The translations under genes and the position numbers were made by a program. The notes beneath the pieces are model-generated. The model had not been told where the DNA came from and made no database searches. It was given only the letters and a program-made list of their open reading frames with translations. From Actinomycetes bacterium (GTDB lineage Bacteria > Actinomycetota > Acidimicrobiia > Acidimicrobiales > Ilumatobacteraceae): DNA of 64,000 nucleotides. The stretch is taken from the NCBI GenBank assembly GCA_029782355.1, contig JAKOUY010000016.1, forward strand, positions 744,001 through 808,000, read 5' to 3'. Positions 4,199 to 62,778 of the stretch are shown in pieces (the first letter of the stretch is position 1; each line of letters starts with the position of its first letter).

Positions 4199-5172
4199 TG
4201 GCGGGATGGCGCGGCCGGGGCGGGTGGTTGGTGCTGGCGCTGGTGGTGGTGACGGCGTTCGTCGTCGGCGTGGCCCGCGATGGCGGACCACGCTCGGCGG
4301 CGGAGCGGGCCGACGCGATCGCCCAGCGGGTGGCCTGCCCGGTCTGCAACGGCGAGTCGGTGTACGAGTCGCAGGTCGGCGCCTCGGTGCGGATCCGCAA
4401 CGAGATCCGCAAGCTGGTGGATGCCGGGCAGCTCGACGACCGCCAGATCGTGGCCACCATCGAGTCCCGCTTCCCGGGGACCGCCCTCGTGCCACGTAGC
4501 ACCGGTCTCGATGCGCTGGTGTGGGCGATCCCCACTGCGGTCGGGGTCACCGCCCTCGGCGGGGTCGCCCTGGCGATGCGTCGCTGGCGCGGCCGGCGGG
4601 TGCCCCGGCGCGCCGCGTGGATCGGTGGGCTGGTCATCGTCGCCGGGCTGGCCGGCTGGGCGGTGGCGGCCAACATCGGCGAGCGCGGCTCGGCGTCCGG
4701 CGGACCCGCCGCGCCCACGACGCCGGCGGATCCGGTGCAGGCCAAGCTGGCCGAGGCTCGGGCCCAGCTCGGCAGCAACCCCTCGGCGGCGGCTGACGCC
4801 TTCCTCGCCGTGTTGAAGATCGACCCGACGAACGCCGAGGCGAAGACCTACTCGGCCTGGCTGGTCGTGCTCCAGGGCCGCCAGACGGGCGCACCGCAAC
4901 TCGTCGAGGCGGGCCTCGCCGCCCTCCGCCGTGCGGTGCAGGCCAACCCGACCTACCCGGACGGGCACTGCTTCGTGGCCATCGCCAGCGCCCGGTTCCT
5001 GGCCACCCCCGACCCGGCCACGGCGCGCACCGAGGCCCAGGCCTGCATCGACCACGGCGTCAACCCGCAGATGCGCCCGATGATCGAGTCCCTCCTGACC
5101 CCCGACACCTCACCCCCGACGGCCCCCGCCACGCCGCCCCCACGTTCCCCCACCCCCGCCACTTCCCCCTGA
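4198..5172 (+). CDS. ccmH: CcmH-type apocytochrome reductase with C-terminal TPR (CcmI-like) region
   Basis: A 324-residue protein; ATG 4198 overlaps the ccmG stop by one base. Residues 1-25 form a membrane anchor. The CcmH motif ACPVC (C47, C50) is followed by the usual helical segment (residues 51-97), a second membrane segment, another helix near 145-160, and then a TPR-like region of about 100 residues resembling CcmI. So this is a CcmH-CcmI type fusion. The final 30 residues are almost all Pro, Thr and Ser. It ends the operon; the 48-bp repeat array follows. Confidence 0.9.
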   Translation: MAGWRGRGGWLVLALVVVTAFVVGVARDGGPRSAAERADAIAQRVACPVCNGESVYESQVGASVRIRNEIRKLVDAGQLDDRQIVATIESRFPGTALVPRSTGLDALVWAIPTAVGVTALGGVALAMRRWRGRRVPRRAAWIGGLVIVAGLAGWAVAANIGERGSASGGPAAPTTPADPVQAKLAEARAQLGSNPSAAADAFLAVLKIDPTNAEAKTYSAWLVVLQGRQTGAPQLVEAGLAALRRAVQANPTYPDGHCFVAIASARFLATPDPATARTEAQACIDHGVNPQMRPMIESLLTPDTSPPTAPATPPPRSPTPATSP

Positions 5173-5209
5173 TCCCCGCGCCGTCGGCCATCCCTCGACA
5201 CCCCACGGT

Positions 5210-5440
5210 CCCATGGGCGCGCAACCATCCGCGTGTGCACGTTTCCGCGCCCATGGGACCCGGAGTGATCACACCGGCGCCGGGTGTCCCTCGACGCCCC
5301 ACGGTCCCATGGGCGCGCAACAATCCGCCCGTGCACGGTTCCGCGCCCATGGGACCCGGATCGGTCACACCCGGCGAGTGAGCCGCCACGGGCCCATGGG
5401 CGCGCAACCATCCGCCCGTGCACGTTTCCGCGCCCATGGG
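5210..5440. repeat. Array A: three copies of a 48-bp inverted-repeat element
   Basis: Three copies at 5210-5257, 5306-5353 and 5393-5440. Each is exactly 48 bp: a 12-bp arm CCCATGGGCGCG, a 24-nt core, and the inverted arm CGCGCCCATGGG. The arms are identical in all copies and themselves contain the 8-bp palindrome CCCATGGG. Cores here begin CAACMATCCGC and end GTGCACGKTTC. The 39-48 bp between copies are also partly repeated (GGGACCCGGA after a copy, CCCCACGGT before one). The array fills the convergent spacer between ccmH and the SixA-like gene; I see no gene in 5173-5499. Two more copies lie at 62479-62778. Confidence 0.95.
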
Positions 5441-5499
5441 GGTTGGGAAGGTCGCTTGGGCCGGGTTCGGGTGGGGGCGGGTCGGGCGTGCCGCGGCGG

Positions 5500-5964
5500 T
5501 CAGTCCTCGGGGGGAGGCCAGGACGCGGCCGTGGTGATCTGGCCGTGACCGTCGCGCTCGAGGACCCACACGCTGGCCTTGCGCCAGTCGGCCACGGTGG
5601 TGAACTGGCAACCACGACGCTGCAGGGCCTGCATGGTCTCGGGGATCACATCGCCATGGCTGCACAGCACCGAGCCGTCCGGGACCGAGGCGAGCAGCTC
5701 GAGGGCCCCGTCGTAGCCGCTGTTCTCCGCCAGTCGTTCGTCGGTGTTCACCACCGTTCCGCGACGGTGGGCGAGCGGTTCGAGGGTCTGGACGCAGCGC
5801 ACGTACGGGCTGGCGATCAACTCGCCGGCGCCGAGCTTGCGCAGCCGGTGGCCGATGGCATCGGCCTGGCGCCGGCCACGTTTGGACAGCGGGCGCAGCT
5901 GGTCGTCGCCGCTCCACTCGCTGCGGCTGCCTGCTTTGGCGTGGCGGACCAGATAGATGCTCAC
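5500..5964 (-). CDS. Histidine phosphatase family protein (SixA-like)
   Basis: A 154-residue protein starting at GTG 5964 with the N-terminal histidine phosphatase motif LVRHAKAG (His8 as phospho-acceptor). It also has SPYVRCVQT (R56) and the second catalytic histidine in CSHGDV (H103). The small size matches SixA-type enzymes, which remove phosphate from phosphohistidine or small phospho-compounds. The substrate is unknown. The open frame extends upstream to 6306, but that part is not phosphatase-like and overlaps the divergent SDR gene. A possible -10 (TAGTCT on the minus strand) lies at 5988-5993. Confidence 0.85.
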   Translation of the reverse strand: MSIYLVRHAKAGSRSEWSGDDQLRPLSKRGRRQADAIGHRLRKLGAGELIASPYVRCVQTLEPLAHRRGTVVNTDERLAENSGYDGALELLASVPDGSVLCSHGDVIPETMQALQRRGCQFTTVADWRKASVWVLERDGHGQITTAASWPPPED

Positions 5965-12708: not shown

Positions 12709-13734
12709 ATGACGCGCATCACCGTCGGATGGGACGATCTGGTGGCGGCCAGCCGCGGCCTGGACCGCCCGGCGTGGGCCGAGCCAGGCAGTCGTGACGT
12801 GGTGGTCGTCGAGCTGGACGGGTCCGCCCCGCCGCTCGCCGCCAGGCGCCCCCCGGTGGTCGTCGCCGGCCTGACCGAGCCGGGTGGGCCGAAGCTCGGC
12901 GAGCGTCCGGGTGCCGCCTGGTGCGACGTGGTCCTCCCCGCCGGTTCCGACGAGTTGGACGCGGTGACCGAGACCGTGGGGCGCGGCCCGGTCGCCAGCG
13001 CCGCGCTGGCGGTGCTGCTGCGCGACGCGCCGAGCCGTTCCGTGGCCGCCGGGCTGGTGGCCGAGTCGGCGACCTACTCGGCGCTGCAGGCCGGCCCGGA
13101 GTTCGCCGCCTGGCGGTCTGCCCGCCCACCTCGGCGGCCGCGCCTCGAGCCGCCGTCGCCGATCCGTGTCGAGCGCAGCGCAGCCTGCATGACCGTCACC
13201 CTCCACCGCCCGCACGTGCGCAACGCCCTGAACACGGCCATGGCCGATGCCCTGATCAACGCCCTGGCCGTGCCCGTCATGGACGACTCGATCGAGCGCG
13301 TCGAGTGGCGAGGCGCCGGTCCGGACTTCTGCGCCGGGGGTGACCTCGACGAGTTCGGCACGTTCCCCGACCCGGCAGCGGCCCACCTGCTGCGCCTCGG
13401 GCGCAGTCCGGCCGCGGCTGCCGCCGCGGTCGCCGACCGGCTGACCGCCTTCGTCCACGGGTCGTGTGTCGGGTCGGGCATCGAGCTGGCGGCGTTCGCC
13501 CGGCGCGTCGTCGCCGACCCGGCGGCCCGCTTCGCCCTCCCGGAGCTGGGCCTCGGCCTGATCCCCGGGGCCGGCGGCACGGTGAGCCTGGTCCGCCGGA
13601 TCGGTCGCCACGAGACCGCCCGGCTGGCCCTGACCGCCCGGCCGATCACTGCCACGGCTGCCCTCGCCCTCGGCCTGGTCGACGAGCTGGCCGAGGTGGT
13701 CAGCGAATCCGGCCCCGGCGCCCGGAAACCCTGA
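12709..13734 (+). CDS. Enoyl-CoA hydratase/isomerase family protein with extra N-terminal region
   Basis: A 341-residue protein. The crotonase fold occupies about residues 155-330. HGSCVGSGIELAAFA carries the oxyanion-hole glycine and the first catalytic Glu, and ALPELGLGLIPGAGGT carries the second, so hydratase activity is possible. The first 145 residues are not part of the usual fold. Their end (SVAAGLVAESATYSALQAGPEFAAWR) looks like the C-terminal helices of another crotonase, suggesting a degenerate tandem copy. Divergent from the acyl-CoA synthetase operon, it probably acts in acyl-CoA degradation. Confidence 0.82.
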   Translation: MTRITVGWDDLVAASRGLDRPAWAEPGSRDVVVVELDGSAPPLAARRPPVVVAGLTEPGGPKLGERPGAAWCDVVLPAGSDELDAVTETVGRGPVASAALAVLLRDAPSRSVAAGLVAESATYSALQAGPEFAAWRSARPPRRPRLEPPSPIRVERSAACMTVTLHRPHVRNALNTAMADALINALAVPVMDDSIERVEWRGAGPDFCAGGDLDEFGTFPDPAAAHLLRLGRSPAAAAAAVADRLTAFVHGSCVGSGIELAAFARRVVADPAARFALPELGLGLIPGAGGTVSLVRRIGRHETARLALTARPITATAALALGLVDELAEVVSESGPGARKP

Positions 13735-13771
13735 CCAGTTCCGGTGGGGGCGTGGGCGGGGCGGTGCCGGG

Positions 13772-62478: not shown

Positions 62479-62778
62479 CCCATGGGCGCGGGAAGTTGCA
62501 GATGTGGGCGTTTCCGCGCCCATGGGGCCGGGGTGGGTCAAGTCCGCAGCCGGCGAGTCCTCGGCGCCTGCGACTCCACCCGCACCCCGCCATCCCGCAC
62601 CCCCCAGCCGCACCCCCCAGCCGCATCCCGCCACCCGCACCCGGCCACCCGCACCCGGCCACCCGCACCCGGCCACACGCACCCGGCGGCCCGCACCCCG
62701 CCACCTGACCCCTACTTGACGCCCCGCGAGCCCATGGGCGCGGGAAGTTGCAGATGTGCACGTTTCCGCGCCCATGGG
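62479..62778. repeat. Array B: two copies of the 48-bp inverted-repeat element with a tandem 14-bp repeat between them
   Basis: Copies at 62479-62526 and 62731-62778 have the same 12-bp arms CCCATGGGCGCG/CGCGCCCATGGG and the same 24-nt core length as array A. Their cores start GGAAGTTGCAGAT, unlike array A, and end GTGCACGTTTC (GTGGGCGTTTC in the first). Between the copies lies C-rich DNA with four near-perfect 14-bp units CCACCCGCACCCGG (about 62630-62685) and shorter CCGCACCCCCCAG repeats. The whole 62383-62792 gap between korB and plsC holds no gene. A weak GGGCC/GGCCC hairpin lies at 62388-62409. Confidence 0.93.

Follow-up and report, generated by a model that had tools for sequence, protein, structure and literature searches.

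To our knowledge, the Y1 transposase RAYT is the only kind of companion known for REP-like palindromes. As set out in two descriptions (PMC2817692, PMC3116915), the palindromes of REP/REPIN-RAYT systems are dispersed between genes, occur as spaced inverted pairs and in tandem clusters, enclose a companion gene between repeats and are of a type that goes with that companion. A second point of comparison is the AbiE type IV toxin-antitoxin system, whose antitoxin AbiEi binds a pair of 23-bp inverted repeats with a 3-bp spacing (PMC7319586).

The REP/REPIN-RAYT features just listed recur in the system described here. The array in question lies in a window of 64,000 nucleotides, the whole stretch of DNA that was analysed, from a genome (G000) of 3.79 Mb in 40 contigs; C numbers denote contigs of this genome and L numbers extracted loci. 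Judging from sequence comparison, we regard the array as a set of non-autonomous members of a REPIN-like system, with a nuclease other than a RAYT as its putative partner. The three units are probably non-autonomous copies of the palindromic element of a two-component repeat/nuclease system, with a partner encoded at C1:115971-116900 that would bind the element, cut it and spread it by cutting.

The repeat family and its architecture

The array and its surroundings comprise the following features:

4231..5172, + strand: CcmH-domain protein, 3' end 37 bp before the array
5210..5257, no strand (.): repeat unit 1, arms CCCATGGGCGCG / CGCGCCCATGGG, 24-nt core
5306..5353, no strand (.): repeat unit 2, perfect copy, 24-nt core
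5393..5440, no strand (.): repeat unit 3, perfect copy, 24-nt core
5500..5964, - strand: SixA-like histidine phosphatase, 3' end 59 bp after the array
62479..62526, no strand (.): repeat unit of a second window cluster between convergent genes, perfect, 24-nt core
62731..62778, no strand (.): repeat unit of the same second cluster between convergent genes, perfect, 24-nt core

The original prediction, a three-copy array of a 48-bp inverted-repeat element, was borne out by three perfect copies at 5210-5440, each with a 24-nt core. The motif CCCATGGGCGCG-N24-CGCGCCCATGGG occurs three times there and twice at 62479-62778, for a chance expectation in the window of 0 copies on average (100 dinucleotide shuffles). 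A general structural role had been held to be doubtful if the motif proved confined to these two places or were as frequent inside genes and in every context; the clusters examined all lie between genes (below), and the genome-wide search returned 46 perfect copies in 26 clusters (gaps of 20-28 allowed), with a spacer of 24 nt in 43 copies and 25 nt in 3. At gap 24 with at most 3 mismatches there are 76 copies, and CCCATGGG-N32-CCCATGGG occurs 64 times. The ends, thought to be invariant, are so within the window; elsewhere the arms show occasional changes.

The core is not random: its consensus is SAANNNKSCR-NNNN-YGSMNNNTTS (the aligned units may also be read as SAA, N3, YSCR, N4 and the mirror image) and both halves of the unit fit one consensus. 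Core positions C9 and G16 are the same in 30/30 cluster representatives, and TGAC/GTCA recur as weaker outer positions about 10 bp outside the arms. Adjacent tandem copies differ at 14 of 648 arm positions, 69 of 648 core positions and 96 of 378 positions of the 5' flank, a comparison that favours the arms because units with more than 3 arm mismatches and pairs with more than 8 core differences were excluded from it.

In 35 units of G000 and 13 of a second genome, G409, paired cells amount to 77.8%, shuffles giving 78.2%; among 576 arm cells 38 are unpaired, and double changes in the arms number 0. Given no compensatory changes in the arms and no co-variation in the core, the unit looks like a sequence-specific dyad DNA site rather than a selected RNA hairpin; an RNA hairpin under selection was ruled out on the absence of covariation in both parts. 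A single strand is still predicted to fold well (three strands from the window and a relative's copy have z between -3.6 and -5.7), because the arms are complementary. At the gathering threshold, Rfam models matched nothing in the window except a tRNA.

The position of the array between convergent ccmH and SixA-like genes was confirmed by matches to the CcmH domain and to the histidine phosphatase family. All 33 clusters examined (those with CCCATGGG arms and a unit in the window or in the 5-17 kb stretches around the matches listed; C27:137139-137372, for example, is left out by the arm requirement) are intergenic, with 13 in convergent, 15 in codirectional and 5 in divergent gaps according to the third version of our own Markov gene caller, orientations having varied over three versions (7 divergent in the second, 5 in the third). 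Element-free gaps of at least 80 bp in the same loci are convergent in 8 cases, codirectional in 21 and divergent in 21, so that the element is present in 13/21 convergent gaps vs 5/26 divergent ones (Fisher p = 0.006). For two of the divergent-gap clusters, Pfam matches support the genes on either side (luciferase-like/DnaE and TerC/ribosomal protein L3), and one solitary arm falls within a gene (L067). Genes for three tRNAs (Gly, Leu and Pro) each have an array 70-155 bp upstream (L065 4674, L068 4367 and L079 4580).

The preference for convergent over divergent gaps and the strong predicted hairpins are what would be expected if the repeats acted at gene 3' ends, as bidirectional terminators or as hairpins that stabilise RNA. 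We nevertheless consider this very improbable: pairing equals that of shuffles with the arms devoid of double changes, 5 clusters lie between divergent genes, the gap is fixed at 24-25, and a scan for a GC hairpin followed by a T-tract, allowing loops of 3-8 only, found no terminator-like site at 5050-5600 of the window. The bidirectional transcription block once proposed for the array is weakly supported: it keeps the bias towards convergent gaps in its favour and loses on the 15/33 codirectional and 5/33 divergent clusters, on the lack of a T-tract at the array and on core pairing that is not conserved.

Taken in its exact form, the repeat was not found in any other genome among 397 of the order; CCCATGGG-N32-CCCATGGG likewise counts 0 in the other 396. 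The absence of the same arms in relatives at first suggested a one-species repeat, a reading abandoned when a structure-free model of the repeat, R1, reached the genomes G250 and G009. With at most 19 candidates scored per genome, R1 matched 7 of 296 genomes at E <= 0.001, some of the matches being apparently unrelated (L143 lies seemingly inside a gene, and L141 is a palindrome behind an apparent tRNA). In an actinomycetote MAG (L039, G409) the repeat keeps the 40-bp period and has a different core. The pattern with NAA/TTN beside the arms is nearly private: 14 occurrences in G000, 1 in G021, 1 in G705 and 0 in the other 147 of 150 genomes. Copies with TGGGCGCG...CGCGCCCA arms, counted in 40 family genomes, number 105 in G014, 55 in G000, 18 in G660, 10 each in G020 and G007 and 9 in G637, with fewer than 9 or none in the other 34; all but 5 among the matches listed span 40 or 41 bp (36-46 allowed), and the reversed control pattern gives 0 or 1 per genome. 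The expansion in G014 is the largest among the 40. G007, which is without a close nuclease ortholog and has 14 diverged matches, carries a repeat variant with cores like GTGACGCTSAGCGTCAC. The core pattern had 0 matches in viral contigs.

The arm pattern also matches Luteimonas mephitis and other genomes (L016-L063 except L039). In the 9 xanthomonad copies inspected, these prove to be pairs of REPs, headed by GTAG or GCAG, with the same CCCATGGGCGCG arms in their stems, likewise as inverted pairs; they differ from our units in that GTAGGAG or GCAGGAG precedes the arm and in a spacer of 21-24. GTAG directly outside the arm is found in 0/72 of our units and CGTC in 1/72, and the palindrome-preserving complementary changes of REPs are not seen in the 35 units of G000 and 13 of G409. 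We take the likeness of the arms to be convergent.

A companion gene of the AbiEi_4/MTES_1575 type

The R1 matches in G250 and G009 led to a nuclease-like gene. In G000 this gene, C1:115971-116900 (L064), is bracketed by the same repeat, with a copy at C1:115814 (2 arm mismatches) upstream and the cluster C1:116912-117141 on the other side; the homologous genes of G250 and G009 likewise have repeats on both sides. The protein, of about 309 aa, is 51% identical to its G250 and G009 counterparts, and in all three the N-terminal AbiEi_4 winged helix scores at or above the Pfam cut-off while the C-terminal match to REase MTES_1575 stays below it. Among 11 proteins, AbiEi_4 reaches the cut-off in L064, L139, L144, L206, L222, L204 and L262 and not in L187, L250, L251 and L235; MTES_1575 matches 8 of them, at 21-27 bits where the cut-off is 38.2, the other 3 being unmatched; and DUF559 is at cut-off only in L251 and L235. 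PADLOC AbiEi models match 3/3 proteins tested. NCBIfam holds no matching model, and among solved structures no PDB sequence matches convincingly.

Across 94 sequences, two of them duplicates, the predicted active-site residues are conserved: D239 in 93, E250 in 91, D252 in 85, H257 in 89 and D266 in 89; the G000 paralogs L250 and L251 are without the aspartate at position 252. These acidic and histidine residues are those expected of a PD-(D/E)XK-like nuclease of the Vsr/DUF559 type, so that the protein is a predicted nuclease on the strength of sub-threshold domain matches together with conserved residues. Its D...ExD...H...D pattern resembles the one of Vsr/EDxHD enzymes. The comparison with Vsr-like/EDxHD homing endonucleases is one of analogy, in that both may spread selfishly by cutting; here the gene has palindromic flanks and the putative site exists in many genomic copies.

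The companion also sets the system apart from REP/REPIN-RAYT, being a winged helix joined to a PD-(D/E)XK-like domain and not a Y1 (HUH) protein. A REP-associated transposase had been proposed as partner; the Y1_Tnp model (PF01797, RAYT) gave 0 matches in G000, the same search being positive in 5/14 control genomes, and a RAYT companion was rejected on that result, the AbiEi_4/MTES_1575 gene having been found in its place. With AbiEi systems the companion shares the winged helix and the inverted repeats beside the gene, and it departs from them in its nuclease-like C-terminal domain and in repeats that lie on both sides and are dispersed.

A profile search of 150 family genomes recovered 22 close orthologs, spread over 20 of them and separated from the rest by an E-value gap from 1.1e-99 to 2.0e-65; within the phylum, 28 of 119 genomes have class members; up to 14 matches of the gene family were counted in one genome. 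In G000, 4 nuclease genes were found, with four repeat types, one per gene. Three of the genes carry their repeat in both flanks, and at the fourth, L206, the more distant copies are found past the adjacent gene. Within 336 kb of G000 the other three types are also represented by isolated copies that have 0-2 mismatches per half: behind a tRNA in L079, in L074, and in the window itself:

13693..13741, no strand (.): degenerate copy of the GAACTGGTCAGCG-type repeat, 2 and 1 mismatches in its two 13-bp halves; the nuclease gene of this type is C13:163411-164196

Exact TGGGCGCG-N20-30-CGCGCCCA is missing in 7/20 genomes with a close nuclease ortholog and present in 5/20 without one.

Both-sided repeats that follow the nuclease lineage

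In many lineages, nuclease genes of this class, orthologs as well as diverged paralogs, mostly have gene-specific repeats on both sides. When the 220 bp before each gene were locally aligned with the 220 bp after it, a score of at least 20 was reached at 43/50 loci of the class, against 4/91 same-locus pseudo-genes and 1/103 ordinary G000 genes, close relatives being counted as separate, non-independent loci, the controls being G000 genes and pseudo-genes, and four loci with flanks shorter than 150 bp (L189, L202, L234 and L259) being excluded. Scores fall below 13 at 6/50 class loci, and 20/103 controls reach 13. A cruder measure than local alignment, a longest shared substring of at least 14 nt, separates 33/50 loci from 3/103 genes. 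Many of the shared sequences are palindromes of about 40-60 bp that differ between gene types; palindromes scoring at least 11 on both sides occur at 24/50 class loci vs 0/103 genes. The flanking repeats are inverted at 26 of the 50 loci and direct at 11, with 7 ties and 6 loci without any. Other nuclease classes reach a flank score of 20 at 12/38 loci vs 0/39 controls and have two-sided palindromes at 4/38. Three other-class genes (L245, L246 and L243) score 102, 55 and 44.5, with shared stretches longer than the palindromes found elsewhere.

The repeat type tracks the nuclease lineage. In a comparison of 49 loci, matches of 14 nt or more between opposite sides join 18/69 cross-genome pairs at 55% protein identity or more, 6/131 at 45-55%, 1/113 at 35-45% and 4/836 below 35%, and 0/27 same-genome pairs. 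Since the frequency of matches rises with protein identity and is nil within a genome, the repeat type follows the nuclease and not the host. At one conserved locus, the half-sites have changed jointly: between L204 and L222, whose proteins are 81% identical, the inner 10 bases show 5 changes that are alike in all four half-sites, the outer bases being kept. A joint change of both sides is also clear by score for L183/L184; for L194/L195 and L220/L221 the score is swamped by conserved neighbouring sequence.

Contigs C35 (520 kb), C29 (315 kb) and C14 (130 kb), about a quarter of the genome, carry 0/46 perfect units, which could be a chromosome-region bias or an effect of binning. An uneven map of this kind (0.97 Mb together without a perfect unit; post hoc estimate of 3e-5 for 26 clusters missing 1.26 Mb) would also suit chromosome-organisation sites for a nucleoid protein, the nuclease link being secondary. 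That the repeat was found in its exact form in one genome of 397 and that its sequence follows the nuclease lineage make such sites, in our judgement, a highly implausible explanation.

The most serious competitor that we weighed takes the repeats as operators of an AbiEi-type autoregulator with an acquired regulon, the copies tuning transcription of their neighbours and the nuclease domain acting elsewhere, e.g. in phage defence. AbiEi proteins are autorepressors that act on their promoters through inverted repeats of comparable length (PMC7319586), the PADLOC matches point the same way, and palindromes upstream of the nuclease gene are common. Repeats are however also found 3' of that gene, 13/33 clusters occupy convergent gaps, in which a promoter would not be expected, and tandem arrays with a lineage-specific expansion (0 to 105 copies) are unlike a regulon; we think it unlikely that the repeats are such operators.

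Several loci are rearranged. Between G009 and G655 (96% identical proteins) a stretch of array is missing, with a breakpoint inside a palindrome. Nuclease genes of one type stand in unrelated neighbourhoods, be it within one genome (L177 vs L207) or between loci (L201 vs L203, L204 and L222). In L215 the nuclease gene is inverted relative to neighbours common to L217 and L210, as recombination between flanking inverted palindromes would give. The changed neighbourhoods suggest that the nuclease gene is mobile; comparison of the loci revealed no empty site.

A proposed mechanism and its meaning

Returning to the two-component repeat/nuclease system, we infer that the protein binds and cleaves the palindrome, that the elements are mobilised and that cutting spreads the repeats. 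Two protein molecules would bind the two 24-bp inverted halves of the 48-bp unit through their winged helices, one per half, each half consisting of a conserved arm and the AA...YSCR motif. The two 23-bp AbiEi repeats are close to 2 x 24 bp, so by analogy the two halves would accommodate one winged helix each; from the nuclease-like domain joined to it, cutting in or beside the site seems likely. Once the DNA is broken, repair or recombination there would copy, delete, invert or tandemly duplicate repeats, and the same process may move the nuclease gene with its flanking palindromes. The interpretation first given to the array is partly supported: among the roles imagined, a recombination-protein site or non-autonomous mobile element came closest.

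It is tempting to extend the scheme to AbiEi_4/MTES_1575 genes across Actinomycetota, although on this we are almost evenly divided and lean slightly against it. They may form a new class of selfish DNA, each gene having a private palindrome pair and each nuclease driving the spread, inversion and loss of its palindromes within the genome by a double-strand-break route unrelated to HUH/DDE transposition, with the dispersed palindromes as non-autonomous offspring. In the open-access literature, subscription papers and preprints being mostly outside the scope of the search, we found no description linking AbiEi-domain, MTES_1575 or DUF559 proteins with dispersed palindromes, an absence that is not proof of novelty.

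Elsewhere in the genome, the palindrome of the window stands on either side of a gene for a predicted DNA-binding nuclease; this is one of many such pairs, for which the literature covered gave no published description. If REP-like palindromes do have another companion, unrelated to the first and with a double-strand-type nuclease fold, pairs of repeat and nuclease would have arisen more than once in evolution. Such a companion would also point to a likely role for a multicopy and unassigned gene family of Actinomycetota, and the many natural pairs of protein and target may serve for reading out a recognition code.
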